A stretch of 64,000 nt of DNA. Source: Pegea sp. RAD2-039 (lineage: Eukaryota > Chordata > Thaliacea > Salpida > Salpidae). Below, piece after piece: positions 1-63,380 of this stretch. The notes beneath the pieces are model-generated. The model was not told the DNA's origin. It searched no databases and worked only from the letters and a program-made list of their open reading frames with translations. The stretch lies in contig JAQGEQ010000365.1 of the NCBI GenBank assembly GCA_034620365.1, forward strand, positions 186,001-250,000. Direction: 5' to 3'. Position 1 is the stretch's first letter. Each line of letters begins with the position of its first letter. A program made the translations under genes and the position numbers.

Positions 1-2430
1 CTTATGTTTTAGTGGCTTTGACAGAAGTCGGAAAATTTAAAGAGGTTTAAAAAGAAATTTGAAATTGAAAATTTGATTTTTAAAATCGATTTCTAGTTTC
101 AACAATTACTTCTGATTCGTCGATATCTTGAAGTAAATCTTGATAGCATCAGATCAAATCCATTTGCTCTTTCTATTGTGACGTATGCTCTTCATACAAG
201 TGAAAGTTCGAGAGCTGATGACGCGTTTGAAGCTCTTGAAGATTTAGCAATTGAATCAAGTTCGGAAATATTTTTGAAATTATTTTTTTATCACTTTTTT
301 TTTAAAATAGAAAATTTAATATTTGTATCTTCGGTTTAAAATAAGATTCAAGAATAATAAATATTTAGAATCGATTTTTAATCAAAGTTTTGAAGATATT
401 TGATAAAAATATAGAAGAAGAAGCAATAATGATGTTTTAAGATTTACACGAAATTTAATAAATACATTTTATAGAAACTTTTTAAGACACAAAAATTTCT
501 ATAAAATTTTTAGAATAATTTTTTTATAAAAACTAATTTCTTCATTTAATAAAATCTTTTAAAAGCTTTTCAAAACTTTTTAAAATATCACAAGTTGTTT
601 ATCTTTAGTAAATTTGAAGGAGGTTCAAGTTAAATCAAACTAACTTTACGTTAATCATAAAAAAAATATCAAAATACGAAGTGATGTTTATCAGATTTGA
701 ATTCTTCAAATTTCTAATTTTTCAGTTAAATATATTTTGTTTTATAGATGATCAAAAATACTGGCATCAAGCAGATGACTTTTCATCTAGTTTAAATGAA
801 AAGTATCAATTTTACTACGAAGAACCACCAAGTAATGATATCGAGATGACAGCTTACGCTTTACTGACGTATGTTAGAAGAAAATCTATCATTTCAGCAG
901 TTCCAATTCTTAAATGGCTTACATCAAAACGTAACGAACTCGGAGGTTATTCTAATACTCAAGTAAGACTTTTTCTAAAAAGTTACAAGTTTTATTATCA
1001 TCTAATAATATGACAAAAATCGTGACAACAATTGTAAGATGCTTCAGTTGAACTTAAACTGATTTTTAGCTGATAAAACTTCTGATATTAAAATTATCAA
1101 TTATTTAAAATCAACTTCAAAAAAAGTAGAAAAAGTTTTCAAAACAAATTCTTTATAGAATACAGTAATAGCAATTCAAGCGTTATCAGAAGTTGCTGCT
1201 TTATTTGGTACTTCAAACCAAGATCTACATGTTACAGTTACAAAGGATTATGTGTCTCAAAACATTCGAATATCTAATCACAACGCAATGGTTTTAAACA
1301 GAATCGATGTAAGATATTTTGAATTTGTGTAACAACTTGAAGTTTGTAAAATATTTATTTTGCTTAGTTACCTGCTACTAATGGTCAAGTTAATATTGAA
1401 GCTTCAGGATTTGGAGTTGCAGTTGTACAAATGTCCATTTGCTACAATATAGTTGAATCTCCATTTTCTGATTCTCCATTTAATTGTGATCTTGAAGTGA
1501 TCTGTAGAAGTTATGATTTTGCAAGGCTGCAGTTTTGTTGCAGGTTTTTTTTAACCTAAATATCGATAATTTAGTAATTATTCATCTCTGTAAAGTTTAA
1601 AAGAATCTGCTGATGATTCAACTGGAATGCTTCTTTACCAAATCAACCTCCCAAGTGGTTTTAAAGTGAATTTAGATGAAGAAATCACAAGAAATCGTGA
1701 AGCAAATCTTGTAGAGTTTAAAAAAGGAAGTGTCAATTATTATTACAATAAGGTATCGATATCACTTACAACGTAATTTATTATCTTTGAGAATAAACCT
1801 GCTTGATACAAATTTTTAATAATTCTTAGCTCTCCCAAGGAAATGAAATCTGTTCAACAACTCAAATGAAAAGGTATCAACAAATAGCTGGAAGCAAGCC
1901 ACCAACCATCACTGTTCAAGATTATTACCAACCAGGTACAACTACTTCTTATATCAAAGTGCTTTTCTCATTTGAAGATTCTCAAATTCGCTTTCGTATT
2001 TAATCAAGAGTAAAAACCCATTTTGTAATCAAATAATATTTTTGAAATTTTGTAAATTTAGTTTATTTACTTTTGTATCTAAAAGTTAAATTAGATAAAA
2101 TCTCATTTCTTAGTTTTAAATTTTGTTGATGTTTCTGTAAATTGCTGAAAGAAACGATCAGTTTTGAATACTGAATGTTAAAATTTGATTTTTTCTGATT
2201 TAATTTTGTTGATTATATCAATATTATATTAATTTAAATTTGCTGTATTATTTAATAGTAATATTTCCTCAGTTTTGTTTTTATGAAGATAATATTTTTG
2301 ATAAATATAAACGAAATAAAATTGAATTTCAGAAAGACGTTTTACCACGAGTTACTCAATTTCGAAACTTGAATCTTCAGAAGCTTGTAAAGTTTGTGGT
2401 TCTGAATGTGCTGGTTGCAAAAGTTTGTAA
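1..2430 (+). CDS. TEP gene A, 3' portion only (alpha-2-macroglobulin/TEP family)
   Basis: This is the C-terminal part of a secreted thioester-containing protein; the 5' part, including any thioester, lies outside the window. Exons read: 1-44, 97-259, 748-962, 1159-1308, 1368-1543, 1596-1752, 1830-1941, then 2333-2430. All match paralogue C exon by exon and in phase. They cover the last part of the thioester (TED) domain, the second half of CUB, and the receptor-binding MG8 domain, including TYVRR and LKWLTSKRNELGGYS. The last exon encodes a Cys motif (CKVCGSECAGC) and stops at 2428-2430. Genes B, C and D splice at this point into TSP1- and LamG-like exons, but no such exons are visible downstream of A. 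An alternative end by intron read-through is at 2001-2003. The family call is secure; the exact 3' end is inferred. Confidence 0.85.
1924..2003 (+). other. alternative terminal tail of gene A (unspliced donor read-through)
   Basis: At the end of the MG8-coding exon the sequence offers a donor (CAG then GTACAA). If this donor is not used, the frame continues for about 22 codons ([20 protein letters not shown], then RI) to a TAA at 2001-2003. The same tail occurs in genes B and C. An AATAAA at 2315-2320, before the spliced last exon, could serve a short transcript. Whether the tail is used needs RNA evidence. Confidence 0.5.
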
Positions 2431-2476: not shown

Positions 2477-2815
2477 GCAGCAACCATCACTTCGTAACCA
2501 GTAGCAACCATCGCTTTGTAACCAGTAGCAACCATCGCTTCGTAACCAGTAGCAACCATCGCTTCGTAACCAGTAGCAACCATCGCCTGTAACCAGTAGC
2601 AACCATCGCTTCGTAACCAGCAGCAACCATCGCTTCGTAACCAGTAGCAACCATCGCTTCGTAACCAGCAGCAACCATCGCTTCGTAACCAGTAGAAACC
2701 ATCGCTTCGTAACCAGTAGCAACCATCACTTCGTAACCAGCAGCAACCATCGCTTCGTAACCAGCAGCAATCATCGCTTTGTAACCATTAGCAACCATCT
2801 GTTGTTACCTGGCAA
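2477..2815. repeat. minisatellite, 24-bp unit, about 14 copies
   Basis: Tandem 24-bp units (consensus agcaaccatcgcttcgtaac plus cagt) with small variants, degrading at the right edge. The period is a multiple of three, so several minus-strand frames stay open (for example an 8-residue VATGYEAM repeat). A stop just beyond the array, and no splice signal or unique tail, argue against coding. It lies immediately 3' of gene A, where its paralogues carry TSP1 and LamG exons. Confidence 0.9.
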
Positions 2816-3178: not shown

Positions 3179-6100
3179 TTAACAAGATTCTTCTACTTGT
3201 ATCTGAGATTTATCAAGATTTATTTGCCCATCATCTTCTTGCTTTAAAGAGTCAACATCTATGATTTCTTCATCAGCATCTTTGTTTCCATCACTAGTGT
3301 CTTTGATCTTTTCATCATCACCAACTTTGATCTTTTCATCATCAGCATCTTGGATCTTTTCATCATCAACATCTTGGATCTTTTCATCATCAGCATCATG
3401 GATCTTTCCATCATCAGCATCTTGGATCTTTTCATCATCAGCATCTTTAATCTTTTCATCATCACCAACTTTGATCTTTCCATCATCAGCATCTTGGATC
3501 TTTCCATCATCAGTATCTTGGATCTTTCCATCATCAGCATCTTGGATCTTTTCATCATCAGCATCTTTAATCTTTCCATCATCAGCATCTTTAATCTTTT
3601 CATCATCAGCATCTTTAATCTTTTCATCATCAACATCTTGGATCTTTCCATCATCAGTATCTTTAATCTTTTCATCATCAACATCTTTAATCTTTTCATC
3701 ATCAGCATCTTTAATCTTTTCATCATCACCAACTTTGATCTTTTCATCATCAGCATCTTTAATCTTTTCATCATCAACATCTTTAATCTTTTCATCATCA
3801 GCATCTTTAATCTTTTCATCATCAACATCTTTAATCTTTTCATCATCAGTATCTTGGATCTTTTCATCATCAACATCTTGGATCTTTCCATCATCAGTAT
3901 CTTGGATCTTTCCATCATCAGTATCTTGGATCTTTCCATCATCAGTATCTTGGATCTTTTCATCATCAACATCTTGGATCTTTTCATCATCAGCATCTTT
4001 AATCTTTCCATCATCAGCATCTTTAATCTTTCCATCATCACCAACTTTGATCTTTTCATCATCAGCATCTTTAATCTTTTCATCATCAGCATCTTTAATC
4101 TTTTCATCATCAACATCTTGGATCTTTTCATCATCAACATCTTTAATCTTTCCATCATCAACATCTTGGATCTTTCCATCATCAGTATCTTGGATCTTTC
4201 CATCATCAGTATCTTGGATCTTTCCATCATCAGCATCTTTAATCTTTCCATCATCAGCATCTTTAATCTTTCCATCATCACCAACTTTGATCTTTTCATC
4301 ATCAGCATCTTTAATCTTTTCATCATCAACATCTTTAATCTTTTCATCATCAACATCTTGGATCTTTCCATCATCAGTATCTTGGATCTTTCCATCATCA
4401 GTATCTTGGATCTTTCCATCATCAGTATCTTGGATCTTTTCATCATCAGCATCTTTAATCTTTCCATCATTACCAACTTTGATCTTTTCATCATCAGCAT
4501 CTTTAATCTTTTCATCATCAGCATCTTGGATCTTTTCATCATCAACATCTTTAATCTTTTCATCATCAACATCTTGGATCTTTTCATCATCAGCATCTTG
4601 GATCTTTTCATCATCAGCAACTTTAATCTTTTCATCATCCGCATCTTGGATCTTTTCATCATCACCAACTTTGATCTTTTCATCATCAACATCTTGGATC
4701 TTTTCATCATCAACATCTTTAATCTTTTCATCATCAACATCTTGGATCTTTCCATCATCAGTATCTTGGATCTTTCCATCATCAGCATCTTTAATCTTTT
4801 CATCATCAGCATCTTCAATCTTTTCATCATCAACATCTTGGATCTTTTCATCATCAGCATCTTGGATCTTTTCATCATCAACATCTTTAATCTTTTCATC
4901 ATCAACATCTTGGATCTTTTCATCATCACCAACTTTGATCTTTTCATCATCAGCATCTTTAATCTTTTCATCATCACCAACTTTGATCTTTTCATCATCA
5001 ACATCTTTAATCTTTTCATCATCAACATCTTGGATCTTTTCATCATCAACATCTTGGATCTTTCCATCATCAACATCTTTAATCTTTTCATCATCAACAT
5101 CTTGGATCTTTTCATCATCACCAACTTTGATCTTTTCATCATCAGCATCTTTAATCTTTTCATCATCACCAACTTTGATCTTTTCATCATCAACATCTTT
5201 AATCTTTTCATCATCAACATCTTGGATCTTTCCATCATCAGTATCTTGGATCTTTTCATCATCAGCATCTTTAATCTTTTCATCATCACCAACTTTAATC
5301 TTTTCATCATCAACATCTTTAATCTTTTCATCATCAACATCTTGGATCTTTCCATCATCAGTATCTTGGATCTTTCCATCATCAGTATCTTGGATCTTTT
5401 CATCATCAGCATCTTTAATCTTTCCATCATCACCAACTTTGATCTTTTCATCATCAACATCTTCAATCTTTTCATCATCAACATCTTTAATCTTTCCATC
5501 ATCAGCAACTTTGATCTTTTCATCATCAACATCTTTGATCTTTTCATCATCAACATCTTGGATCTTTTCATCATCAACATCTTGGATCTTTTCATCATCA
5601 ACATCTTTAATCTTTTCATCATCAACATCTTGGATCTTTCCATCATCAGTATCTTGGATCTTTCCATCATCAGTATCTTGGATCTTTTCATCATCAGCAT
5701 CTTTAATCTTTCCATCATCACCAACTTTGATCTTTTCATCATCAACATCTTCAATCTTTTCATCATCAGCATCTTTAATCTTTTCATCATCAACATCTTG
5801 GATCTTTCCATCATCAGTATCTTGGATCTTTCCATCATCAGTATCTTGGATCTTTTCATCATCAGCATCTTTAATCTTTCCATCATCAGCATCTTGGATC
5901 TTTTCATCATCAGCATCTTCAATCTTTTCATCATCAACATCTTGGATCTTTCCATCATCAGTATCTTGGATCTTTCCATCATCAGTATCTTGGATCTTTT
6001 CATCATCAACATCTTGGATCTTTTCATCATCAGCATCTTGGATCTTTTCATCATCAACATCTTGGATCTTTCTATCATCAACATCTTTAATCTTTTCATC

Positions 6101-6596
6101 ATCAACATCTTGGATCTTTCCATCATCAGTATCTTGGATCTTTCCATCATCAGTATCTTGGATCTTTCCATCATCAGTATCTTGGATCTTTCCATCATCA
6201 GCATCTTGGATCTTTTCATCATCAGCATCTTTAATCTTTTCATCATCAGCATCTTTAATCTTTCCATCATCACCAACTTTGATCTTTTCATCATCAGCAT
6301 CTTTAATCTTTCCATCATCACCAACTTTGATCTTTTCATCATCAGCATCTTGGATGTTTTCATCATCAACATCTTGGATCTTTCCATCATCAGTATCTTT
6401 AATCTTTCCATCATCAGCATCTTGGATCTTTTCATCATCAGCATCTTTAATCTTTTCATCATCAGCATCTTTAATCTTTCCATCATCACCAACTTTGATC
6501 TTTTCATCATCAGCATCTTTAATCTTTCCATCATCACCAACTTTGATCTTTTCATCATCAGCATCTTGGATGTTTTCATTACTTTTATTAATAAGG
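3179..6596 (-). CDS. giant exon encoding an acidic octapeptide-repeat protein (last exon, hypothetical)
   Basis: I do not recognise this family. On the minus strand one frame runs unbroken from a good splice acceptor (pyrimidine-rich, ending TTTTTCAG, exon beginning at 6596 in phase 2) to a TAA at 3181-3179, about 1139 codons. After a short leader (SLINKSNENI) come about 136 octapeptides of the type DADDEKIK, with variants such as DVDDEKIQ, DTDDGKIQ and VGDDEKIK. It ends in about 39 unique codons that stay acidic (including DADEEIIDVDSLKQEDDGQ) and finish ESC. The repeats contain no Met, so upstream exons must supply the start. A 24-bp period keeps four of six frames open, so openness alone proves nothing; the unique acidic tail and the acceptor single out this frame. 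Function is unknown; a highly charged, extended or helical polymer is a guess. Confidence 0.6.
3300..6573. repeat. large minisatellite, 24-bp unit, about 136 copies
   Basis: Perfectly phased 24-bp units with no visible indels. A few unit types differ at fixed positions: ttttcat or tttccat, followed by cagcatctttaatc, caacatcttggatc, cagtatcttggatc or caccaactttgatc. Longer blocks of ordered unit types recur, suggesting higher-order duplication or conversion. The complete absence of frame-breaking indels over 3.3 kb fits selection on a reading frame, and the minus strand gives the most convincing one. Confidence 0.97.
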
Positions 6597-13622: not shown

Positions 13623-16600
13623 ATGTGTCTTCCATTTAAGCTGCTTGTATTTGCAGCATTTTGTATCTTTCAGTTCAAGATTACTTCTGCAAAAAAGTAA
13701 GTCACAAATTTATTCCAATTTTTAAATTTGAAATTGAACCAATTTTTTATAAAAATAATTTTCTTTTTCAGTCAATATCTGATATATGTCCCAAAGTTTG
13801 TACACCCAGGGCAACCAATCAATTATGTGGTCCACAATTTGATAGCAACTGAAGACGTTTTAGTCACCGGGATATTAACTTACAAACACGGGACACTGTC
13901 CACCAACTCAATAGTCTTTCAAGGAGGTAAAAATTAACTTTAACGAAATACTTGAAAAATCTAATCAAATACTAAAAGTTGAAAATTCAAAAAGAAAAGT
14001 TTTAATGAAATTATTTACTTCAGGTGAAAACAAAATGTTGTCGACAGAAAAAGTGAGTTAATTGAAGTTGTTTGTAGTTTAAACTTTTAATATTTTCAGC
14101 TTCCATTAACTACTACCAGAAAAAGTGGTTTGAAGTTGAAGATTACTGGTAGAAGTCGTTTTGGAGAAATCCTTTTTACTGATGAGACGTCCAATTTTCG
14201 TGTGAAAAAATACCAATCAATGATTATTCAAACTGATAAATCTGCGTACAAACCTGGACAAATAGGTGACAAATATTTACTAATTATTTAAAAAAGTGAA
14301 TTTGTTGAAATTTGATGTTTTATATTCAGTGAAATTCAGAATAATAAATCTTGATGTCAATTTGAAACCTTTGACTCATAAACTGAATTATGAGATTACT
14401 GACTCCAAATCAAACGTGATTCTGTTGAAGGAGAATCAAGTTCCAACTCTTGGTGTAGTTGGTGATGAACTACAAATTCATGAAGATACACCAGCTGGTG
14501 ATTGGACGATTAAAGCAACCGATCATATAACTGTAAGTTTTGATGTCTAACTAGAATATGAATAAAAATGATTGAATTTACAGAAGTATCGTTATAAAGT
14601 GAAATTTCAAGTGAAAACTGACAAACTACCAAGATTTGAGGTGATGATAAAAGCTCCTAATTACTACTATTTATCATCTGATGGTTTAACTGTTAAGTTG
14701 CAAGCAAAGTAAGTTAGCATGTCATCTTGTAATCATTTATATTAATTAACTCAAATGTAAAGATTCTTATAAAGTGATTTTTTAATCTAAACTGATCTTA
14801 GGTAGATTTAAATTTAGTTTCATTTTGTAATTAAAAAGAAAAACTTCTTGTTTTTATTGATAACAAAATTAAACAAAATCGCTTAAAAATTATTATAATT
14901 GGTGATAAAAAGTTAATTCAAAATATTTTTAAATTCTACGAAAGTTTTAAAGTTAATAATAAATATATAAAAAACGATTTCGAACCCAGCCTTCGATAGC
15001 TCAGTTGGTAGAGCGGTGGATTGTAGCGTTTGTTGAAATCCATAGGTCGCTGGTTCGAATCCAATAATAAAAAGAATTTAAAAAAAAATCTTTTTTTATA
15101 AAGCTATGAAGAAAGAGAAAAGAAAGTTTCTGGAAAAGCTTTGATTGAAGTTGCTCTTTTAGAATCAAGAGATGATTGGAGAATGAATTATTACGATAAA
15201 TATTATAAAGAGGATTTAATAACATCAGTAAAAAAAGAATTTGCGGTGAATCAACTTCAAAACATTTCATCGATTATTTCATTTTTAACAACTAGAATCT
15301 TAACTTGTAATTTGAATAAAATTTCTTTAACTAATTTTTTTTTATTAGAATTTCACTGGAGAAGCTCAGCTGTTTGTAGATTCAGCAAAACTTGGTTCTT
15401 TTAATATTGAAAGTGTTACAAAATGTATTGTTGTCTTTGCTTCTGTTACTGAACTGAATACAACTGTTGAACTAAATACAACAAGAAGAATTGATATAGA
15501 AGATCAACCAATCAAAATCAAGAAATTATTTTCATCTAAGATTGCAAAACCTGGTCTTCAGTATTTTGCTTATGTAAGTAATTCGATAAATGTTTCAAAG
15601 TTGCTTCAACCTTCAATTTTTTTAGTTTAAAATCTCAGAAATTGACGGCAAATTGATTCAAGATTCATTTCGACAAAGAAATCAGCTGTCAATCAAAGCA
15701 ACAATTAAGTGAGTGACACTTGAAATTAGAAAACAAAAAATTTAAATATTTTTAAATAGAAAATTTCCGAATCCAATCAAACCAATCGAACCAATCGAAC
15801 CAATCAGCAAAAAACCACGTGTAGTGGGTCCTCCATCTGCACAATTCACTACGCAACCACCTCCGAAAGGTCCTCATGAAAACGGACCTTCAACGCCTCT
15901 TTACAACATCATTGACGATGGGGGTCTTACGTATGGTGCTGATGGATGGATGCCGGGTGTTAGAAAGCCGACGCAAGTAACAAACGAAGAACCGACAATC
16001 AGGAATTATGAGATCTCACCTGACGGCAGAGTTGCTGTGAACTTGAACTTACCTGAATATAAGTTTTACGAAATTGATTTTCAAGTAAACTTCACTATTT
16101 GAAAGGAAATATTTATCGAAATGTTTTATACTTTAGGCTTATATAGAAGGAACTGATGTGGGAGAGTTGAATTGGTCGGTTTCAACAGCTGAATCAAGAT
16201 CTTATTCATTTATTCAAATTATCTCACCGGAAATAATATTCGAAGGAAAAATAGCAAACTTTACAGTTATATCAAACAAAGTTATTGAAAAACTACAAAT
16301 TTTAGTAAGTCACTTATTATTAAAAAAAAATATTTTGTAAATTATCTTTTGTTGTCAGATTAAATCAAAAGGAAATATTCTATCCAATCAACAAGTCACA
16401 TATGACAGCAACTCAAAATCAGTGAACTTTGAACTTTTGATCACTCGTCAAATGTCACCATCAGCTACTATTTTAGTATCTTATGTGAGACAAGACGGTG
16501 AGATTGTAGCAGATTACATCACAATTACTGTTGGTGTTTCATTAGAAAATAAAGTAAGTTGTTCAACTAACATAAAACAATTCATCCTTTAACTAATTAC

Positions 16601-19600
16601 AACTTGTATTATCTGAATTATTAAACTAATAAGCAACAACCTTTACATTTATATAACATTTATAGAATAGTTAGACGAAGTTAATATTTGAATAGCAATT
16701 TGTCACTGACATTGATGAAGCTAAAGAAGCAGTACTTTTTATAAAAACAAGTTTTCTGTAGATCAAAGTATATCAACTGCTAATCAAACTGTATCATAGG
16801 TTCTGCTGCAAACATCAGCTGATTCAGTTGATGCTGGAAGCAATATTCAAATTTCAGTTCAAACATCTGAAAGAGGAAGTCTTGTAGGATTACAAGCTAT
16901 TGATAAAAGTGTTTTGTTGATGAAAGATGCTAATGAGGTTTCAATAAATGAGGTAAAGGAAAGAAGAAAATATTTTCGAAAATATTTAATGTATTATGGT
17001 GAAAAAACAATTAAAACTACAAATATATTGAGAATTTTACCAAAAGTTTTATACGTTAGTTTGAATTTGAATTTAATTACAGATAACAAGACAAATGTTA
17101 AAATATTCTGGTGGTAGTAAACGTCATATTCATGATTGGTGGCCGAGAACTAACGAAGGGTCGACTGCTACAAGCATCTTTCAATCAAGCTCAATGAATG
17201 TTTTAACAGATGCTTATATCCATGAAAGTAATTTAAATTTCTGATAAAATTTAGTTTTTTAACAACTTCAAAAAAAATTATATCAGTTTTTAGTTTTTAT
17301 TTATTAAAATAAATGCGAAGGAAGGTGTCTGAAGAGAGCATCTCTTTTTAATTTTTAGTTCAAAGGTTTTTGGAAATAAACAATTTTTACTTTTATTAAT
17401 TTTATTTTTTTTATCAAAAAGTAAATCTCTTTTTTAGCTAATTATATATTTAGAAAATTTATAAAATTTAGGATTATATAATAGAACATAAGAAATAAAA
17501 ATATAAGCATATAAAAAGAGCTTTTTGAACTCAATTTTTAATTTTGTAACAGAAAAATTTACACATAGTTATTTAAACGAATATTATGGAGTACCTTATC
17601 TCCCATTTTCATATTTTCCTCGTCATCTTAAGAAGCCTCGTCCTCAAATTTTTATAAGTAATTCTTTGTACGTTGAATTAAAAAAACCAAGAATGGTTTT
17701 TCCTGCAACTTGGCTTTGGAAAGAAACCATTTCAAAGTGAGTTTTTTAGATTAATAACAAAATTTGAATAAAATTGTTTTTAGCAATGAAGGTCTAGCAG
17801 TATTCAATGTTACTGTACCAGATACAATTACATCATGGGTGTTGAATGCTTTCTCAGTATCTGAAAACTATGGTTTAGGTGTTGCTACTTCATCACAGGT
17901 GATTGAATTGAAATAATCAATTTGAAGAAATAGAAATTTTTAAAAAGATTTAAAAGATTGAAAAATGAATGTTAGAAAATTGATTGGTTGATATAAAAGT
18001 AAAACTATTTGAGTTATTCTAAAGATAAATGTATCCACAAAAATACTTCAGAATATTTCATTGAAATAATATCTACTCTTTACTAAACTGAAAGTTTCAA
18101 AGTTTTAAAAGCTTAAAAAGTTAATTATTAGATTGTTTTAAAGAAAAATTATAAAAATAATTGTAAATAAAATATAAAAAATAGTTTTTTTTAAGAAAAA
18201 TTAAGTGATAAGTAACAAAACTTTTTTATAAAGTTTAATAAAAAAATCACAACAGGAAAAGCAGAAAATAAATCTAATCAATAAAAGTTAAAACAATTTT
18301 CAAGAAAAAAGTTGCTTCAAAATACTTACTCAATATTGTAATAAAAATACTATAAATATTTTAAGATTTTCATTAAAAAGTTTTAATTATTTAGAATAAT
18401 TCTTGAAAACTTAGTGAAAATTCTGTAATATTTCTGTTTTCAAAAAAATCATAAATCTTCAGTTTTAAATTCAAATCTCTAAAAACTAACTAACTGACAA
18501 ACTTAAAAAAAAACTAAAAAAAAAACTCAATGATTAAAAATGAAATTACGTTTTGCAGATTACAGTTTCAAGAAACTTTTTTATCAATTTAAATGTTCCA
18601 TTGAAAGTGATACGAGGAGAGATTGTAATAATTCAAGCAATCATCTTCAACTACTTCAAAATGGACTTGATGGTTAGTTCGATTTTATATCAAATAACAT
18701 TTCGTATGAAACAAAAGTTTTATATTTAGGTTGATGTGAGACTACACAATGAAAATGGATTCGAACTAATCATGCCAGTTGATGATGAAGCAGTTGCTGG
18801 TAGAATTCGTCGAATTAAAATTCGTGCAGAAGATCAATATTCAATATCTTTCCCGTTGAAGATGAATCAAATTGGAGAAATTGATATTCAAGTATCTGCA
18901 TCATCAGTAGTTGCAGCTGATTCATTGATTAGAAAGATTTCTGTGAAGGTATCTGATGTCAATATTTTTATGTTTTTTTTGCAACAAATCTTTTGTAAAA
19001 GCCTGAAGGTCTTCAACAATGTTCGTCTCAATCTGTCTTATTCAGACGTGATAGAAGAACAAATGAAGACTCTGTTAAACAGCTCAATGTACAACTACCT
19101 TCTGAATTTGTTCTTGGATCTGAAAGTGTAAAGATGTTTGTTTTTGGTAAGCTTGTAAAATACTTGTTGTTAACAATTCTTCAAATATCACTTTACTATA
19201 TTCCATAAAGATTTTATATTGTTAGATACAAACTACTATATATTAGTAGATTGATTTACTTTATTATCAACTTGTCTAAACATATTTTCTACTTTGTACT
19301 TAGGTTCTTCAAACCAAGATTTAGTTGTTACAGTTACAAAAGATCATGTGTCTCAAAACATTACAATACTTGCTAACAGCCGAATGGGTTCAACCAGAAT
19401 CGATGTAAGATATTTTGAATTTGTGTAACAACTTGAAGTTTGTGAAATATTTATTTTGCTTAGTTACCTGCTACTAATGGTGAAGTTAATATTGAAGCTT
19501 CAGCAGTTCGACCTGGTACTTGGCTTGCTAGTGCAATTATGTACATTTGCTACAATATAGTTGAATCTCCATCTTCTATTTCTTCATTTGATTGTAATCT

Positions 19601-22401
19601 TGAATTTAATGATCAAAGTATTGATTTTGCAAATATGACACTTTGTTGCAGGTTATTTGCAAAAGTTTATTCCTTAATTTGTAAACAGAAAAATATTGAT
19701 GAAAGACAATAAAGTTGTTTTTGAAATTTCTTAAACTTTTTAATGTTTTTTAAGTTTAAAAACACATTACCGTCGGCCAATTGGAATGGTTCTTTACCAA
19801 ATCAACCTTCCAAGTGGTTTCAAAGTGAATTTAGATGAAGAAATCACAAGAAATCGTGAAGCAAATCTTGTAGAGCTTAAACAAGGAAGTGTCAATTATC
19901 ATTATGAGGTAAAAATGATGCTATGTGAATAACTTTCTACTTCAAATACTTCAACAGTTGTTTCGGAGAAGTAAAAACTGTGCAACGACTCAAATGAAAA
20001 GGTATCAACAAGTAGCTAACAACAAACCACTAACTATCAAGGTTCAAGACTCTTATCAATCACCAGGTACAACTACTTCTTATATCAAAGTGCTTTTCTC
20101 ATTTGAAGATTCTCAAATTCGCTTTCGTATTTAATCAAGAGTAAAAACCCATTTTGTATCAAATAATATTTTTGAGATTTTGTAAATTTGTAATTCTTCT
20201 GATAATTTAATCATAAAATCGTTTTTGTTAGTTTGAATATCAAAGTAAACATTTTCATTTAAACGTTATTATTATTCTAATATTATAACTTCTTATGCTT
20301 TTTTAACTTAATGGTTAATGCTTATTGACTTTCTTGTAAGCTTTAGATATAAAGTTCAAACAAGTTCAGTTACTTTAGTAGCTTCTGTAGACTCAGAGAT
20401 GTAACTGTCATTCATAATGAATCATTTTTTTCCTAATATATTTTTACTTTATTGCTTTAGCGAAACAAATTAGTTTATTTTCAATTTGAAATATTTAAAT
20501 TTCTGACTGAAAAAGTTAAAACTTCAAATTTTATTTTTAGATAAATCTTTAATTAAGAGTTATTCAGTTCCTAGTTTTGAAGAGGTAGAAATATGTGAAC
20601 TTTGTGGGTCGAAATGTGCTGGGTGTCCAGGTCTGTACTTCAACAAAATAGCTGATAATTACAAATAATAAGAAAATAGTTTTTAAATATTTTGAAAATT
20701 CCAGAATCTATTTTAAGCGAATGGAAATTACTAAAACCTTGCTTATCTTCATGTGATGAAGATTTTGAAGAACTTTATCGCGATTGTATTGATCCAATAA
20801 AAAATGAAATTATTGACAGCAGTTTTTGTGGTTTTTCTGCTAAACCTTTCAAGAGGGTTTTATGTCAAACGCCTTTATTACCTGAATGCCCAAGTGAGAG
20901 ATTTGAAGTTGAACTATTTCTTAAAACCGATTTTAACTTCAACCTTTTTAATTTCGTGAATTTGTTGTTTCAGTCAAGCACCTAGGAATTTTGGAATTTT
21001 ATGATATGTACGAAGGATATCCAATTACGTTACTCTATCAAAACTGTGGTGTTTTTGCTAACAGTATTTTTAACAAAGGTGGCTTCTCTGAACCCAAAAT
21101 ACCAAGTAACCACCTTTTTGAATTTCAAAACTTTTTATAAAACTCAAAATCTCATAAAATTAAATAAAAGAATATTAATAAACTAGATATCAATTGAGTT
21201 ACTTGCAGATGACTAGATTGTGTTCTTGTTGTAGAAGCTTCAATAATTGAAGTTATTATTTACAAACTTCTATTTTCAAAGGTGTTCGTTTTCAAGGGGC
21301 TTTCTCCTGTCCTTTTACTTTTGAAAATTTTATTTTTTCGAATGGATTCACTATATCTATACTGATGTACATGGAACATCTTCCTCTGCAGACTGATTTA
21401 TTGAGTTATGAATTCAATAAGCTTCATCAATATCAACCATTTTTTAAATTCTTACTGATAAAAAGTCATGACAGGTTTCTATTTTTCTACAATTATATAT
21501 TTCAGCTAAATTTTCATGTTTCTTATAGAAATGGAGATTTCTTAAAATTTGAAGTAATATTTGAGGATACACGATACACTACTCATGTCAGCCAACCTTT
21601 GTAAGTTTCTCAATTTTAACATCAGAATCCCAATCAAATCTCAACTTTTTAAATTTTCAAATAATTTAAGTTTAAATACCAATTAGTAGAAAATCTTTTG
21701 AAATAAACTTGCTTAAATCCATATTTTAAGATATACAACTTCAAACCTTTTGGTTTATTGTATTCAACGGTAGTGATGTTATATGTAGTAAATTGCATTA
21801 ATATATCAAATTGTATGATTGTCTAAACGATTATTTCAAATTCAAATCATTTTTTAGATGGAAATTAGATTTAAGTTATGAAAAATTATTATTTTTTGAA
21901 GGTTACCTTTACACCAATGGACTCATCTGCTGATAACTTGGCACCCTAATAGACATTCAGTTTATATAAACGGGAAAAAGTCTGGAAAGGAATTCGTTGA
22001 AACCTTAAATACAGTTCAAGAGCTTTATCGTTTCAGAGCAAGGTTCAGAGTTGGTGGCCAAAATATAGAGAAAGGTTAGTAGACTTTAAATAAATTGGTG
22101 ATATCAATAAAAACTATTTATGTAACAAATATCTTATTTAATAGATTTATTCAGAGGCAATGCGACCTCTATCGGATTATGGAATCGAAACTTTAACGAC
22201 GATGAAGCTTTACAAACTTATAACTTTTACGAAGAGATACTAATCACTGCTAATAACAATATTGAACCAATTTTAAAACCTTATATGCAAAAGCATCTCT
22301 TTTCTTTTTCACTTAGTAAAGACAATAGCTGTTTTTCTGTACCAGCAACATTAAGTCAACTTCTAAATAGTGATTCATGTTTCAGTAAAATGAATCCTTA
22401 A
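13623..22401 (+). CDS. TEP gene B: secreted TEP lacking the whole thioester domain, with TSP1- and LamG-like C-terminus
   Basis: Thirty exons summing to 1540 codons: 13623-13696, 13772-13926, 14024-14052, 14100-14265, 14330-14532, 14584-14708, 15104-15245, 15349-15573, 15626-15708, 15760-16084, 16137-16304, 16359-16553, 16800-16952, 17083-17227, 17553-17736, 17784-17898, 18559-18672, 18730-18948, 19002-19146, 19304-19404, 19464-19651, 19755-19908, 19958-20066, 20541-20630, 20705-20893, 20974-21105, 21282-21474, 21529-21600, 21902-22074, 22145-22401. A signal peptide begins the protein (MCLPFKLLVFAAFCIF). TEP hallmarks follow: IIQTDKSAYKPGQ near residue 129, [18 protein letters not shown]. Exon 19 (first half of CUB) splices in phase directly into the second half of CUB at GSSNQD, so roughly 320 residues present in C, including CGEQ, are absent. 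The 157-bp intron at the junction holds no remnant exons. A Cys motif, TSP1-like module and LamG-like domain close the protein. Likely a secreted scaffold that cannot bind covalently; role unknown. Confidence 0.88.
14990..15068 (+). pseudogene. tRNA-Tyr-derived sequence inside an intron of gene B
   Basis: The sequence starts like an intron-containing tRNA-Tyr: acceptor arm CCTTCGA, D arm with an intact A box (TAGCTCAGTTGG), anticodon GTA followed by a short intron, then an intact B box (GGTTCGAATCC). Immediately after the B box it switches to AATAATAAAAAG, so the 3' acceptor strand that should read TCGAAGG is missing and no acceptor stem can form. A run of seven T at 15092-15098 could end a Pol III transcript. 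It reads as a 3'-truncated or retroposed copy, not a working tRNA gene. Confidence 0.8.
15760..16084 (+). other. proline-rich insert within gene B macroglobulin region
   Basis: This exon is twice as long as its counterpart in C (325 against 163 nt). It encodes a Pro-rich stretch with tandem KPIEPIEPI-type repeats, then PPSAQFTTQPPP and a Gly/Asp-rich piece, before returning to the shared macroglobulin strand (SPDGRVAVNLNLPEYKFYEI). It looks like an extended flexible loop unique to B. Confidence 0.75.
17293..17350 (-). mobile_element. short LINE 3'-end fragment in intron of gene B
   Basis: About 58 bp match the terminal part of the LINE 3' end seen at 26828, 29661, 32523 and 45919 (ttatttattaaaataaatgc, then gaaggaaggtgtctgaagag). 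Orientation is antisense to the host gene, as for the other copies. Confidence 0.65.
20063..20134 (+). other. alternative terminal tail of gene B
   Basis: The same donor read-through arrangement as in A and C: if the GTACAA donor after SYQSP is skipped, the frame runs [20 protein letters not shown] and RI to a TAA at 20132-20134. This gives a protein without the Cys motif, TSP1 and LamG parts. Nucleotide identity with A and C is essentially complete here although the preceding exon differs more. Confidence 0.5.
20541..22401 (+). other. gene B C-terminal extension: Cys motif, TSP1-like, LamG-like
   Basis: Exon 20541-20630 encodes a Cys motif (CELCGSKCAGC). Exon 20705-20893 encodes a six-Cys TSP1-like module: SEWKLLKPC, CDEDF, YRDC, FCGF, RVLC, then PECP. 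The last five exons encode a LamG/concanavalin A-like fold, recognisable from HQWTHLLITWHPNRHSVYIN, GKKSG and SIGLWNRNFNDDEALQTY. The Cys-motif and TSP1 exons are symmetrical phase 1-1, as expected of shuffled modules. Confidence 0.75.
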
Positions 22402-26800: not shown

Positions 26801-29800
26801 TTCAAGATTTAGTTGTTTGAAATACTATTTATTTATTACAATAAATGTGAAGGAGGGTACCTGAAGAGAGCACCTCCCGCTAACACACATTCTCACAACT
26901 AACATCTATTAAGTCAACAATATAGAAAGTAAAAGATGTAACACATGGTATTTCGATATCACCCAAGGCCATATAACATTGAACAATTACATGAAATGCT
27001 AATAATATGAAAAAGAGAAAAATTCACAGTTTATAAATGAGAATGTTGGCAATATTATAACGGTTCAACTACTTCTTGAACAACGCGAGTGACTCCGACA
27101 TGACAATGTCTGAAATTTTACGCATTTAAATAATAGAACACATTTAGTACATCTATGTGTAATCATTAGCTTGAATAAATTTCTATTATTATTAATTCGT
27201 TAAAAATATCTTATAACTTAAAAAAAACTAATAATGGTTTTAATTTTAGATCAAATCAAGAAAGAATATTCTGTCTGATCAACAAATCACATATGACAGC
27301 AACTCAAAATCAGTGAACTTTGAACTTTTGATCACTCGTCAAATGTCACCATCAGCTACTATTTTAGTATCTTATGTGAGACAAGACGGTGAGATTGTAG
27401 CAGATTACATCACAATTACTGTTGGTGTTTCATTAGAAAATAAAGTAAGTTGTTCAACTAACATAAAACAATTCACTTTTTAAATAATCACAACTTGCAT
27501 TATCTGAATTATAATTGTATTAGAAAAATATGATGGATTTAGTGAGACGAATAAACTTTTTTAGATTTTTGGTTAAAATCAATATTTTTGAATTATGAAT
27601 GCCTGGGGTTAGAAGTTTGTCAAAAATCTGCAGTAACCTCTAATTTTTGCAGCAATTAATATCTTAAAATAAATTTTATTTATAGCTTATGAAGTCAGTT
27701 ATATCGCCCAAAGCATGCATTGTGTTTTGGAAACATACTTTTCTGCAATGAAAATAGATTTTATCTAAAATTTTGATAAAAACTAATATTTTTTACTTTT
27801 CATTAAGGTTAATGTTGAAAGCTCTACCAACAACACAGATGCAGGGAGTAATGTAAAACTTTCAGTCCAAACTTCTGAAGCTGGGAGTTATGTTGGATTG
27901 AAAGCCATCGATAAAAGCGTTTTACTTTTGAAATCAGCGAATGAAATATCAATGACCGAAGTAAATGATTTGTTGAAATTTCTTCAATTTATTTGAAACA
28001 TTCAAAAAGTTTCATTTATCTATTTATTAATTTCTTATTTTTTATGATTTTTTTCAATTAATAATAAAGATTAAATAAAGATTCTTGTTTTCAGGTGAAA
28101 GATGATATCAGGCGTTATACAGAACAGTTCAGTTGGATGAATTCTTACAGATGGTTTTGGTGGCCGATGTCTAATGACGGATTGGACGCTGAGGAGATTT
28201 TTTATTTCAGTAATATTGAAGTTTTAACAGATGCCAATCTCTATTCAAGAAGTAACAATTCATTTAATTTATTCAATGTGTAAAAAGTCACTTTTTTAGG
28301 GGTTGAGTTTTCCCCTATAGGACCGTATGGAGGAACATCCATTATTGCAGAGCCAGCTAGCCTGCGAGATCTTAAAACTGGAACAGTAGAAAGCAAACCA
28401 AGAACTTATTTTCCTGAAACTTGGTTATGGGAAGAACAAATTTCAGAGTTGGTATTTTTTCGATTTTGTTATGAAAACTGAAATGTTTTTTTAATAGTGA
28501 TGAAGGTATAGCAAGTTTTAATACCACTGCACCTGATACTATTACTTCTTGGGTTCTAAGTACATTTTCGGTGTCCAAAAATTATGGTTTGGGTATAGCA
28601 GACACATCACAAGTAATTCGAAACTGAGTTTGTTTGTAACATTCAAAAAATCAAACTTATTCAAGCATACATTCGAAACATTTTGAAAAAATTTAACTTT
28701 GGTGTTTTAAAACAAAATATTTTTAGAATCAAAGATAAAATTCAAGTTTTAGAACTCTAAATTAAATATCTTCAAAAAGAAAATTTTGTTGAATCAACTT
28801 TACTATTTTCCTGGTTTTACAGATTACAGTTTTTAGAAACTTTTTTATCAACTTAAATGTTCCATTGAAAGTAACTAGAGGAGAGATCATTATTGTTCAA
28901 GCAATTATCTTCAACTATTTCAAGATGGATTTGGAAGTAATTTCATTTAACAAGCAAAATTTATTTCTAATTTTAGTTTTAGAAAAGAACTTAATTAATC
29001 ATCGTAAAAACTAATTCAAAATATAAAAATGAATTTTAGGTAGTAGTCAAATTGGAAGAAAACTCAAATGGATTCGAACTAATCATGCCAGTTGATGATG
29101 AAGCAGTTGCTGGTAGAATTCGTCGAATTAAAATTCGTGCAGAAGATCAATATTCAATATCTTTCCCATTGAAGATGAATCAAATTGGAGAAATTGATAT
29201 TCAAGTATCTGCATCATCAGTAGTTGCAGCTGATTCATTGATTAGAAAGATTTCTGTGAAGGTATCTGATGTCAATATTTTTATGTTTTTTTTTGCAACA
29301 AATCTTTTGTAAAAGCCTGAAGGTCTTCAACAATGTTCGTCTCAATCTGTCTTAATCAGACGTGATAGTAGAACAAGTAGACTTTCAAACAGCTACTAGT
29401 TTTTACCACAAAAATATTTTTTATTTTTTTAGCCTGAGGGTATTCAACAATGTTTCTCTGAATCAGCTTTGATAAAACGAGATGTTTCAACGAAAGAAGA
29501 TACTGTCACTGAATTTGATGTAAAGATACCTCTTAATATTGTTCCTGGCTCAGCAAACATGAAACTCTATATTTATGGTCAGTAACCTCTTACTGTCTAA
29601 AGTTGATTTGTAATATTTCAAAAATATAAAAAACCAACTCTAACTAAATATCGTCTAGAAATTTATTTTTTATTTAATACAATAAATGCGAAGGAGGGTG
29701 TCTGAAAAGAGCACCTCTCGCTAACACACATTCTCACAAATAACAACTATTAAGTCAAAAATATAGAAAGCAAAAGATGTAATACATGGCATTTCAGTAG

Positions 29801-32800
29801 TCCTCTAAACATATAACAGTTAACAATTACATAGAATGTTAATAATATAGAAACAGAAAAAAAAATCACAGTTTAGAAATTATAGTGTTAGTAATATTAA
29901 TATAGTTCAACTTCTTCTTGAACAACGCGAGTGACTCCGACATGACAATGTCTGATGGCAGCTGGTTCTATCTACTAATTGTGCGGTATGAGAAAAAATT
30001 CAATCTGACCATTGTATTTGTATTTGAAGGAGATATAATGGGAAGTACCAGAAGTAATTTAGGAAGTTTACTTCGAGAACCAACCGGTTGTGGAGAACAA
30101 AATATGATGTCATTTGCTCCTGATGTCTTTGTGACTTTGTATCTTCGAAATGCTGGAATATTAGATGAAGAAACTAAAGAAACTGCTTACAAGCATTTCT
30201 TACAAGGATACCAAAACCAACTGAAGTAAGTTGAAGAAAAACCTTTTTTGAAACAAGTAAATATCAGATAAATTATTAGGTTTATTTCAACTATCTACTT
30301 ATTGTGACAATCTAACAGTTTTCTATTGAATATAAGAACTTAATCAAGTTTTCAGATCATCTTGAAATCTTTGAAAACTTTTTCCAAATTATCTTAATTT
30401 AAAAGAACAATTTTAAAAGTAGTTTGAGTTATTATCAGAGACTCTTTTGTATCTATCTGCATCCAGTTTATTAATTAGTAGTTCATTCATCTCCACTTTA
30501 TCAATATTAATTTGATTTAGTTGAAAAAATGTCAATTTCTTTTGTAGTTATCGCCACCCAGACGGTTCTTACAGTGCTTTTGGTGAACGAGATGAGTCAG
30601 GAAGCTTGTGGTTGACTGCATTTGTTGTTAAATGTTTTAAACAAGCTGGACTAGTTCGTCCAGAGATGCAGGAACAATTGAGTCGTAATATTGAAGATGC
30701 AGTGTCTTTCATATTCTCACAAATAAATAAAGATGGAAGCTTTAAAGAGCCAGGCAGTGTCAATTCACGATCCATTCAAGTGAGTAGAAACATTCATTCA
30801 AAGTTCTTTCCACAAAATAATTTTAAAGGGTGGAGTTGACAGCCCAATAACTATGGCTGCTTATGCTTTAATCTCATTAACTGAGATTGGAATGCCAACA
30901 GGAGGTCGCAAAGATGAAGATAAAAAGGTTTTTTTGTTGACAGAATATTTGATTTACGTTTTTTTCAACTCTTTCTTCTGTAGATGCAAAATATTGCTTC
31001 TGCTCGTTCGTTTCTTGAAGACAATCTTGATAGCATAAAATCATCTCCATTTGCTCTTTCTATTGTGACGTATGCTCTTTATACAAGCGAAAGTTCGAGA
31101 GCTGATGAGGCGTTTGAAGCTCTTGAACAATTAGCTGTTATTTCTGGTATTTTTTTTTAAATTGATTTAAATTATTTTATAAAGTTTTCTAAGAACTTAA
31201 AGTATCTTGAACAGATGAACAAAATGAGAATATATAACAATAATTAGTTAGAATCTTTTATATTTAAACTTCAGTTTAAAATTTATCTCTCTCTCGTAGT
31301 CTTAAAATTATCAAAATTTTGTGAAAAATGTTTCTTGAAACAGTAAACTTCTAGTTCATTTTTTTAATTAAATGATTGCTTGTATATCTTGATAAATAAT
31401 TCTATCTATTACTTGTATCTATGTTATTTGGTTTTTACTTTTTCTTCAAATCATTTGCGCTTACAATTTAGTTGGGTGTGTCTCTCTTACTTTCATTACA
31501 AGATCACTTTTATCTTCTTTGTTCAGTTTTCGTTTCAAGTTTTTATTTAAAATACAAATTTCGAAAAACTCTTTTTAATAATCTTCTTTTGAAATATTTC
31601 TCAACTAATTTAATAGATGGAAATAAATACTGGAACGAGAACGAAGCCTTTTCTTCCAAATATAGTAATGAGTTTCGACCTTCATTTTACAAACCTCCCA
31701 GTAATGATATCGAGATGACTGCTTATGCTCTCTTATCTTATGTGAGAAGAGGAGATCTAATGGCAACTCTTCCAGTACTTAAATGGCTTGCATCAAAACG
31801 AAATGAGTTTGGTGGTTACTCCAGCACTCAAGTATGTTTCAAAGATATAGTTTATTATAAAGTCATTTAAAAAAATTCATAAGTTTCATTCAAAACGGTT
31901 TTGATTGGCTCTAACATTTCTAAATGTTTAAATATTAAATCATTCTTTAGAATACAGTGATTGCTATTCAAGCTATGTCAGAAGTTGCTGCCATGTTTGT
32001 TGGTGAAAGCCAAGATATGGTGGTTACAGCTGAAAAAGATGGTATAGAACAGAGCTTCAAAATAATGAGTTACAATTCGATGGTTCTAAACAGAATCGAT
32101 GTAAGATTTTTTATCTATATTTATTATCTCTGAGTTTCGCTTAATTTAGGAAACAAGTATTTGTTAAAATTTTTATTCTATAAATTACTTTATAGTGATG
32201 TAACGAATATTTTGAAAATTTCAAACTTTTGAAATATTTATTTAGTTCCCTGCTACTGACGGTAAAGTAAAGATAGAAGCTTCAGGAGTTGGAGTTGCAG
32301 TTGCACAAATGTCAACTTGTTACAATGTCGACGAATCACCATTTTCTGATTCTCCTTTTGATTGTAAGATTCAAATAAGTGATGAAAATGTCAACTTTGC
32401 AGCTTTGACGTTTTGTTGCAGGTAATTATAAAACTATTAAATGTTTGAAATAAGTTTTTGAATTTGTTACTTTTTCGTATCAAATTTTTATCTGCAATAG
32501 ACACTGTAAAAGTTGAAAACCATTTTTATTTATTTATTACAATAAATGCAAAGGAGGGTGCCTGAAGAGAGCACCTCTCGCTAACACACATTCTCACAAA
32601 TAACATCTATTTAGTTAGAAATATAAAAAGTAAAAGATGTAACACATGGCATTTCAGTAGTCCTCAAAACATATAGCAGTGAACAATTACGTAGAATCTT
32701 AATAATATAAAAATGAAATTTTCATTGTTTAAAAAGTAACTAATTTAAAAACATTTAAAAAACAGATAACCTCAAACTAATTGTTAACAGTTTATAAATA

Positions 32801-40812: not shown

Positions 40813-43800
40813 ATGTCAACTTTACTTTTGCTGCTTTTATTATGTTTCCATGTCAACTGCATCGAGTAAGATTTTTTAAAGTTGAAATTTATGATATTAA
40901 CTCGAATATATTTTCAGATACTCAGCAATCATCCCTAAAACCCTCTTCTCCGATGAGAAAATTCAATTCTCAGTCGGGGTTGTAGGGTATGATGAGCCGA
41001 TCTACTTGGACAGTGAACTCTACTCAAAGACCAGTAGCTTCACTAGAACGAATCACACGATTCTGACTCCAGGTACTTTCTATAAAAGTTCTAAAAGAAA
41101 ATTTCTTTGAATTTTGATGAATTTTTTAACTTAATTGAAAATTTTTTTGCAGAGAGACGTGAACTCATTACCCTCGGAAAGGTGAGTTTAAAAACTTCAT
41201 AATATTTGTAAAAAGAAACTAAATTTAAAGAAAATAATCTAATAAATGTGCCTTGAAAACTCCTTAACTAAAGATGGCAGCAAAAGTTGAAACTATTTTT
41301 CTATTTTAAGGTGCCTTTGGATTATGAACCTGATGAAAATTTGACTTTAAGTTTCAAGGGAGTCGACAAGAAAGGAAATATTTGGTTTCAAAACAAATTC
41401 TCTAATTTCCGATTTAGTCACCCAAAACACAAAGTCATAATTCAACATGATAAAGAGAACTACACTCCAGGAGAAACAGGTTCTTTATAAGACTCTTAGA
41501 GTTTCTAATTTACTTAATAAATCTTAGTGAGCCTTCGCGTGATTAATATCTCTCCGGATATGAAACCTGTCAATCATCTGATTGCGTTGAGGATCTTCAA
41601 CAGTGATTTTCAAACTTTCTATTCGAGGCAACAAATATTTACGACCGATGGTGTATTCAGCGATGAATTTGAACTTCCACAAGATTCAATCGAAGGGAAA
41701 TGGTGGATCCATCTTCATGATGAGCAAACTGTAAATATATTTCACAAAATCTTAAAAATTTAAATTTTCGTTTTGTGTTTTTTAGGGAAAAGAAATATTC
41801 AAATTTTTTAATGTGAAGAATTTTGAATTGAGAAAGACAACAATGAATTTGCATGTGTATCATCCTAAATATGTGACAAGCAGTTCTAAAGGAATTGAAA
41901 TAAATGTAGAAACAATGTATGAAAAATTTGTAAAATATTTCTTAATCTTTTTTCAAAACATAAAAATAAAACTTTTCAATCATTCACAAATTAATTTTTT
42001 ATATTATTATTATATTTATAAGTGTTTATAAACATTTGAAATATTTCTAGCGGTTCTGATGGACTAGAAATAATGGGAAAAGCCAAGATAGAAGTTTATC
42101 AACGATCTGATGATGCTGTAGAATATGAATATGAAGAAACTGTAAGTAACTATATCATCAAAATGAAAAAAAAAGTTTGTATAAAATATATTTAAGAAAT
42201 ATTATTTATAACTAATTGAATAAACGAATAATATAAATGGCTTATTTTTACTTCAAAGTTATTTTGATTTGATTTAAATAAAATTATTTTTAATGATTGT
42301 GTAGCTACAATTTAAATTTACAAATTAATCAACTAACATTTTATTTAATGAAGAGATTTAATATGAGAAAGAATTTTTTCATTCCTATCGAAAGCTTGAG
42401 AAATTTTGGTCTCGGAGAAGATTTCCACAAGACTATTTATTTCCTTGTGAAAGTAACAGATCAAAAAACACTGATTACAAAAGAATATGAAGGCAGTTTT
42501 GAATATACAAAAGATAATATCAGATTGCAAATGTTATCCATGCACAAGTATGTCGTGAACGGTGTTCCTTATACTTCAATGGTGAGTTATCATTTGATAA
42601 GCTAATATTTAGTAGCAAAAATTAATATAAAATAACTCACAAGAAAATGAATATTTTTAATTACTATTTTGTAATATGAATTGATTAGTTTGAAATTTCT
42701 TGTTTATTTACAGCTGAAGATAACTGATTATGAAGGTAATCAGATACCTGACGAGGTTAGAAAGAACTTAAAGGCTCAGTTGAAAGTAAAATACTCGTAA
42801 GTAAAATATTTCAATTTATACAAAAGTCTGCAAAATTTTGAGTAGTGAAAATAAAAACTTTGTAGTTAAGATAAAATCTAGAAATTTGTTGAATAAACTG
42901 CTAGTTATTATCCAATTCTAAATGAAAATTATTTTCAGACAAGTTCATGGTTCAGACGAACGATTTTATGAAGAGACACATACTATTGAGATATCTTCTA
43001 AAGGATTCTTACCTGTTAATATCAACTTTACAAATGTTGTTACCACAAATATAACATTTGAGGTACTTAAAAATCTAATAATATTTGAATAATAATCGAA
43101 TTTATTTTCAGTTGAAAGTTACGATGTTTCAATACAACGTGACAAGAATATCTTGGAAGAGTCAACCTTCAAGAAAGCAAAATAATTACTTGAAGTTGAC
43201 ACTGGATCATGAAAGAACTGGCACAGGACCACGTCTGTACTTCAACGTGGCTACCTACGAACAAACTAACAACGTTGGAATCATAGTAAGATTTTATTTA
43301 ATTCTATCAAATAATAAATAATTTCTATTTACTTTAAGGTGATCAAAGATGGAAAAATCATGAAAACAGAAACGATCATTTCTGATAATTTGAGTTACTC
43401 TTTTGAGTATATCCTAGAAGTTAAATCTGAGATGCAACCAGAATTTGTTTTGATAGCTTCTTATTTTACAAATGGGCAATTGATTTCTGATTACTACGTC
43501 ATAAATGTCAATTTCCGTCTCCCAAAAAAAGTTTGTTGATTTTATTTGTGAAAAAAACACTTCGAGCTGATAGTAATTTATGTTCAGATTCAAATTTCGC
43601 CATCACATTCATCAAGTGAACCTGGAGACTTTGTAAAAATTTATATTCGAACTAATGAACCTTCCAGTTTTGTTGGGTTGAAAACATTTGAAAAATATAC
43701 GTCATCACCCTACAGTAAAAACGACTTCGTCTCAACCAAGGTAATCTCTTTTTGAATTTATGTTTTTCTAGTATTTTACAAGTGAAGAATAAACAATTAA

Positions 43801-49800: not shown

Positions 49801-50030
49801 GAAATTGTTCTTTTCTTCATTATGATTTTAAAACTCATTTTTTCAATATTTTAGGTTTTAATGGATATATTTCCTCGATATTGACCTGGAATGTTTGTCT
49901 CAATCAGCAACAAGTAGAAGATACTTTTAAAATCTATGAGGACCTTCTTCAAACTTCAAATTCTGGAAAACGAACAATTCTAGAACCTTACCTTCTAAAG
50001 TTACTAATCTCGCCATTAAGGTTCAACTGA
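40813..50030 (+). CDS. TEP gene D: TEP with the thioester motif replaced, TSP1- and LamG-like C-terminus
   Basis: Thirty-five exons summing to 1680 codons: 40813-40865, 40918-41072, 41153-41181, 41311-41479, 41528-41730, 41786-41916, 42051-42141, 42354-42581, 42714-42796, 42939-43062, 43112-43285, 43339-43530, 43588-43740, 44103-44235, 44305-44398, 44723-44837, 44890-45003, 45061-45273, 45433-45562, 45678-45873, 46264-46504, 46910-46990, 47049-47202, 47255-47439, 47495-47647, 47695-47870, 48040-48160, 48364-48469, 48541-48630, 48685-48864, 48925-49062, 49120-49315, 49366-49440, 49582-49772, 49855-50030. Signal peptide MSTLLLLLLLCFHVNC. The exon plan equals that of C, but hallmarks have drifted: IIQHDKENYTPGE for IQTDKxxYxPGQ, FSQTWLWM for FPETWLWE, and AIEY in place of CGEQ. 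The TED-like region is retained in length and open, so D is not a pseudogene. Probably a secreted non-covalent binder or inhibitor; function is inferred. The acceptor at 42354 is weak. Confidence 0.9.
45737..45748 (+). other. degenerate thioester site of gene D (AIEY for CGEQ)
   Basis: Exon 45678-45873 aligns without gaps to the thioester exon of C: both start GDI and both continue to FVxxYL. At the CGEQ position D reads AIEY in the context ESHTAIEYLPQSFANNVF. Both bond-forming residues (Cys and Gln) are lost, so no internal thioester can form. Confidence 0.92.
45919..46245 (-). mobile_element. 5'-truncated LINE copy in intron of gene D
   Basis: Antisense LINE tail between the exons on either side of the degenerate thioester region. 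It carries the RT C-terminal remnant (complement of gtatgagaaaaaattc-like sequence near 46208), the shared 3' UTR and the terminal atttattt end. It is closest to the fragment ending at 50895-51010. Confidence 0.82.
48541..50030 (+). other. gene D C-terminal extension: Cys motif, TSP1-like, LamG-like
   Basis: Exon 48541-48630 encodes CSNCKGNCIGC. Exon 48685-48864 is the clearest TSP1-like module: SWESDSLCWNTC, RC, NRC, TC, LPVCP, six Cys in TSP1 order. Five exons then form a LamG-like domain with DQWIHLTITWNVNKALVYMN, GVQQG and GFNGYISSILTWNVCLNQQQ. It is shared with B and C, so the fusion predates their duplication. Confidence 0.78.
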
Positions 50031-63236: not shown

Positions 63237-63242
63237 AATAAA
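63237..63242 (+). promoter_or_regulatory. poly(A) signal of gene E
   Basis: AATAAA abuts the stop codon, with a second overlapping AATAAA at 63242-63247. The distance to the stop is unusually short. Confidence 0.5.
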
Positions 63243-63380
63243 ATAAATTTTGAAAGTTGAATTGATTGTCAATATTACTTAGCAGTTTTGAAGTTTGAGG
63301 TTTTTGAGATTTATTTATTATCAAGCAAATAATAGTCGAGTTTATTTTGAGGTTTGATTAGAGTCATGTGATTAGAGTCT

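Follow-up and report, generated by a model that had tools for sequence, protein, structure and literature searches.

A salp gene of the thioester-containing protein family without a thioester domain, and the deletion that probably removed it

The thioester domain (TED) defines the action of thioester-containing proteins (TEPs), and in the chain it sits inside the CUB domain. In cobra venom factor (CVF) and in C3c, the TED is lost by processing of the protein and not at the level of the gene. CVF and C3c represent a C3b-like scaffold without thioester domain that is active in solution, according to the accessible part of the published account (PMC4638095). Dead thioester sites are described in the available extracts on Drosophila TEP6 (PMC5489563) and tsetse TEP2 (PMC5969219), and snail MCRs and two C3s without a thioester site in those of a further paper (PMC7016707). 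For Biomphalaria C3-3, the available portion of the source gives a thioester region that was not found, a truncated domain interval and an incomplete sequence (PMC9363628). No TED-less insect-type TEP gene was found among the papers listed by searches of openly licensed literature. An exact natural excision of the TED asks whether the remaining TEP folds and works, and it raises the question of a CVF-like scaffold that an invertebrate makes from a gene and not by proteolysis.

The DNA studied here (the window) is a stretch of 64,000 nucleotides from Pegea sp. RAD2-039 (C278:186001-250000), in an assembly of 105.7 Mb and 387 contigs; it has a GC content of 27% and zero N. It holds a cluster of TEP genes, with gene A lying across the left edge, followed by B, C and D (Table 1). 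Upstream of this cluster lies A', which is related to A in inverted orientation and has 4.6 kb in common with it at 98.5% identity, in an inverted repeat (C278:156095-160694 and 183176-187770) that contains parts of both genes. A second inverted pair (4.1 kb, 97.8%) lies beside this repeat, and a tandem duplication of 4.25 kb at 98% runs from window 59256-63502 onward, across the right window edge (C278 245256-249502 and 249377-253623). The 3' end of gene A and the sequence that follows it contain 24-bp minisatellites (window 2479-2799, 13 copies, and 3265-6579, 138 copies), with open reading frames longer than 1,100 codons in four frames of the array; the Cys-rich/LamG end of gene A may have been lost at this site.

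The 16 TEP genes and gene fragments of the genome were modelled with our own gene finder, which includes an intron-length cost; a first self-trained version chained neighbouring genes into one and was dropped. The program requires GT/AG introns and forbids in-frame stops, so that the openness of the models is partly built in. Two predicted exons of A' that broke homology, one of which looked like a mobile element by eye, were taken out by hand. Gene C has 35 exons, and the TED of its protein is recognised by Pfam (PF07678, E 1.8e-81).

Table 1. Features of genes A, B and C in the window
Feature	Position in window	Strand	Remarks
Gene A (part), TED exons of the closest sister gene	1..1308	+	Yardstick for the deletion in B
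Gene B	13623..22401	+	30 exons, 1532 codons + stop; spliced gene model, Pfam, exon phases
Exon 18 of B, MG7 region	18730..18948	+	Apparently homogenised with A and A'; per-exon dS 0.084; tract 18753-19291
Exon 19 of B, first CUB half	19002..19146	+	Ends in phase 1, after base 1 of the Gly-981 codon
Fused intron of B, 157 bp	19147..19303	+	About 149 bp of putative ancestral pre-TED intron, deletion join (CTTT, filler), probable new AG acceptor 19302-19303
Exon 20 of B, start of second CUB half	19304..19404	+	3' 101 bp of the presumed former 150-bp last TED/CUB exon; 82% identical to A' exon 156706-156557
Exon 21 of B, rest of CUB	19464..19651	+	GxG...Q stretch changed, 4-residue insertion
Exons 22-23 of B, MG8 receptor-binding	19755..20066	+	PF07677 E 1.2e-10
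Exons 24-30 of B, Cys-rich stretch and LamG-like	20541..22401	+	PF13385 E 5.6e-8
Gene C (part): exon 19, five TED exons with GCGEQ, TED/CUB exon 31951-32100	29433..32100	+	Intact counterpart of B

The protein predicted from gene B matches six Pfam families at E 0.001 (A2M, A2M_BRD, MG2, A2M_recep, Laminin_G_3 and MG3), with no TED among them; MG2, MG3, A2M_BRD, A2M and A2M_recep are all above the Pfam cut-offs. The domains follow one another in the order MG2, MG3, bait region, A2M, (CUB), receptor-binding MG8 and LamG-like, the last of which is also present in C and D. Pfam at E 0.001 detected neither an anaphylatoxin nor a C345C domain in B, and NCBIfam detected nothing in its first 403 residues. 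The N-terminus of the model is hydrophobic, as judged by eye. In a tree of 15 models, from which the TED columns and the C21 model were left out, B groups with A and A' at 99/100. Judged on its sequence, B is a TEP by descent only, without the defining TED and GCGEQ motif.

Some features of the gene and its surroundings were recorded in passing. B is Pro-rich at the place where an A' exon (C278:163509-164055) has a long Ser-Gly-Pro repeat. A tRNA-like stretch with a possible intron was noticed by eye within intron 6 of B (window 14990-15065); ARAGORN run over the window called none there, its sole tRNA being a tRNA-Ser at 53061-53142. The 900 bp upstream of B have just short matches to A and A', and none to C.

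In an alignment of the 16 TEP models, both CUB halves of B are present and in frame, with 0 residues between them, versus 230-321 in the other 15 (the lowest length, 230 residues, is that of C21, a partial model). The stretch lost from B is 310 residues relative to A and A', and 318 relative to C; the preliminary description had estimated about 320. Similarly, the match of B to CD109 (8s3o) ends at B residue 981, which is the junction residue, and restarts at B 1056 / CD109 1304, a difference of 307 residues. We scanned 5,335 six-frame peptides, from both strands of the whole window and from C278:150001-186000, with TED profiles. With A, A', C and D left out, a profile of six further paralogues recovered the TED exons of these four genes, and its best match in gene B was noise (E 7.4 at 20986-21183); a fuller profile gave a best E of 7.4 in gene B as well, at 15102-15401. 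Short true TED exons scored weakly in these scans (the 99-bp exon of C had E 0.001 with the first profile), so that a very short remnant could be missed. These scans likewise found no TED relocated within gene B.

All 30 exons of B have the end phases of their counterparts in C, and exon 19 ends in phase 1 in B, C and A', the phase in which C enters its TED, as had been noticed at the outset. The gene model also confirmed the positions initially given for exon 19, exon 20 and the intron between them (Table 1). It contains no internal stop; the initial statement that the rest of the gene is open and in phase is upheld, with 1532 codons and a stop in place of the 1540 codons then counted. As assembled, gene B almost certainly lacks the TED.

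GCGEQ is also missing from D and from the models on C1 and C6, where the place of the TED holds 302, 321 and 267 residues, respectively. Gene D (window 40813-50030) still has a Pfam TED match (E 7.3e-15). The TEP-like models at C1:5238001-5248000 and C6:2046001-2056000 share the lack of GCGEQ, and that on C6 is very divergent and has one internal stop. In b1, one of five TEP copies on C249, the TED-CUB joining exon (C249:563881-564030) hits a stop in the expected frame and was skipped in the model.

Comparison of B with its sisters locates the breakpoints. At about 98% identity, B 19147-19295 corresponds to the beginning of the pre-TED intron in A and A', and from 19300 B aligns inside the A exon 187159-187308, with 82% identity over 359 columns, into exon 21 and beyond. 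The segment 184956-187202 of A (2,247 bp), which contains five complete TED exons and part of a sixth, is without counterpart in B. CTTT is found at both ends of the deletion in A, a 4-bp microhomology, and B has a few extra filler bases. The coding loss relative to A is 930 bases, or 310 codons, and is in frame; Gly-981 is kept because exon 19 gives base 1 of its codon and exon 20 the other two. Where A has TTTGGT, B has TTAGGT, which provides the AG of the acceptor. Counted from the weakest, this acceptor is 17th of 29 in B, and the exon-19 donor, common to A and A', is 4th of 29. The AG at the join is likely to be a new splice acceptor.

On this comparison, the TED loss of B is best ascribed to a single deletion. 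We propose that an A-like TEP gene was the ancestor of B and that its TED would have been lost by one deletion, presumably through end joining, that ran from a left break in the pre-TED intron to a right one within the last TED exon. In the gene model, exon 19 would then be spliced in frame to the second CUB half via the AG at the join. The CUB reading frame is joined across the junction, in agreement, as far as the frame goes, with the continuous CUB predicted in the preliminary description. Its view that the intron holds no TED remnant stands for TED coding sequence, which was not detected there, with the correction that the first ~149 bp are the sisters' own intron (~98% identity); it needs qualification for the gene, in which exon 20 itself corresponds to the 3' portion of the final exon shared by TED and CUB. 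What the present alignment adds to the first observation is the putative breakpoints, the microhomology and the probable new acceptor, and the breakpoints together with the acceptor show how one deletion could excise a TED.

The deletion junction coincides with the end of a tract of 539 bp over exons 18-19 that is 98.7% identical to A. Exons 5, 6, 12, 13, 14, 17 and 19 of B have at most three codon changes each compared with A'. Exon 16 shows 11 nonsynonymous differences and a single synonymous one, and the remaining exons have diverged widely. In exon 12 (window 16359-16553), A, A', B and C show 0-10 differences in 65 codons, with neighbouring exons far apart, a pattern that we interpret as patchwork gene conversion across the cluster. 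The coincidence at the junction is compatible with a deletion that came first and a later conversion that halted at the end of homology; it also fits an alternative reading, that the deletion removed the end of the conversion tract. The strong change in exons 20-21 leans towards the older date for the deletion.

Exons 20-21 have a dN/dS of 1.37 between B and A' (47 N and 10 S differences), compared with 0.47 for exons 22-23, 0.46 for exons 24-30 and 0.60 for all exons except 18-19. When the changes in exons 20-23 were polarised with C, B had 45 N/9 S and A' had 30/16 (neutral ratio 3.3; Fisher p 0.06 after removal of 20 ambiguous sites). For exons 1-17, 20-23 and 24-30 combined (exons 18-19 left out, 327 ambiguous sites dropped), the counts were 279 N/89 S in B and 208/102 in A' (Fisher p 0.013). 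The N:S ratio of B was 3.3 versus a neutral 3.06 in exons 1-17, and 5.0 versus 3.3 in exons 20-23; in exons 24-30 (114 N/44 S) it was 2.6, below the neutral 3.34. Amino-acid evolution is thus faster in B, by relaxed or positive selection. Intron 20 of B (window 19405-19463) is 98.3% identical to A and A', and its flanking exons are 82% and 85% identical; positive selection as the cause of this contrast was set aside, as short conversion tracts would also explain it. In private changes at conserved columns, the second CUB half of B does not stand out (4/19, versus 0/19-9/28 in six other genes), and neither does its MG8 (9/29, versus 1/22-10/30 in the others).

Several measures bear on the intactness of B. 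Among exons 21-30, length differences from A' occur in seven, each of them a multiple of 3. Net exon lengths were preferred over base-level gaps, since the alignment is noisy and has paired gaps; with this noise, the gaps that are multiples of 3 were 15 of 42 in exons and 16 of 71 in introns. Under simulated neutral change, exons 20-29 stayed stop-free in a fraction of 0.00025 of 4,000 trials at 150 changes; exons 20-23 did so in 0.13 at 40 changes and 0.06 at 60, a weak argument. These simulations span all the time since the B-A' split and not the time since the deletion. The exon-by-exon match of B with C is the part of the evidence for intactness that is independent of the gene finder.

Two explanations deny that B is a fixed TED-less gene. 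The TED exons could have been dropped by the assembler between near-identical copies, and the left flank, 98% identical to A and A', is a setting prone to such failure. CTTT alone is common to the two sides, next to filler bases unique to B, which is too short a stretch for a join by overlap; moreover, the left copy differs from A and A', and the sequence on the right occurs in B alone (82%). In the assembly, the 699-bp junction region is matched over its full length just by itself; A and A' match each half in isolation (98% on the left, 81-82% on the right), and C matches some portions. Among the genome TED matches listed, which lie in other TEP loci, none is an orphan TED of B. We regard an assembly error as very improbable. 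A TED-less allele, with a TED retained by this gene in other individuals, is somewhat less remote and still unlikely. Mosquito TEP1 is very polymorphic, as the accessible part of one report has it (PMC2576239), and one assembly cannot discriminate between an allele and a fixed state. The assembly contains no second, TED-bearing copy; in addition, exon 20 is just 82% identical to A', and in the conserved CUB stretch GxG...Q, altered in B by change and by the insertion of four residues, GxG is found in 14 of the 15 other models and Q in 13 of 15. This divergence fits, indirectly, a longer TED-less life.

The third explanation takes the structure as it is and makes B a decaying paralogue, in which the deletion ended function; the open frame would then reflect either a recent loss or the repair of parts of the gene by conversion from A and A'. 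It agrees with amino-acid change that is near-neutral or faster to the right of the junction, with the excess of N changes over A' (p 0.013), with the altered CUB motif and with the near identity of several exons to A'. Against it are the 1532 open codons with exon-end phases that match C throughout (open frames are favoured by the gene finder), the correct phase and ordinary score of the acceptor at the join, and exons 24-30 below the neutral ratio. We consider decay a substantial possibility, somewhat less likely than not. Whether B combines the TED-less structure with a working product, a non-covalent scaffold, is in our judgement evenly poised. We suggest more tentatively, from sequence alone, that B might be expressed as a permanently open, non-covalent complement-like scaffold, targeted by its LamG-like domain, that regulates or competes with the neighbouring TED-bearing TEPs. 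The predicted product of B would be a secreted MG-ring scaffold (the signal peptide was judged by eye) with a continuous CUB, MG8, a Cys-rich stretch and a LamG-like domain. Having no thioester and no TED-MG8 lock, it should be incapable of covalent binding, and it would remain in an open C3c/CVF-like state and act via non-covalent contacts. It could compete in solution for the proteases or partners used by the neighbouring TED-bearing TEPs, or act as a cofactor to them, and the LamG-like domain would perhaps bring it to targets.

The best match of B among solved chains is CD109 (8s3o, E 1.1e-85), which keeps its TED, whereas B does not. Insect TEPs such as Anopheles TEP1 (2pn5 and 4d94 are among the sequence matches) have the order MG ring, bait region, A2M, CUB and MG8 in common with B; compared with them, B is without TED and thioester and has in addition a Cys-rich and LamG-like C-terminus. 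In TEPs with a dead thioester, as far as the available extracts describe them, covalent binding is likewise not expected; these proteins are without the site, whereas B is without the whole domain. No clean excision is described in the available portion of the account of Biomphalaria C3-3, and B shows one. With CVF and C3c, B shares a C3b-like scaffold without TED; it has no C345C domain at Pfam E 0.001 and is therefore not a member of that class, and its TED loss, in contrast to theirs, is in the gene.
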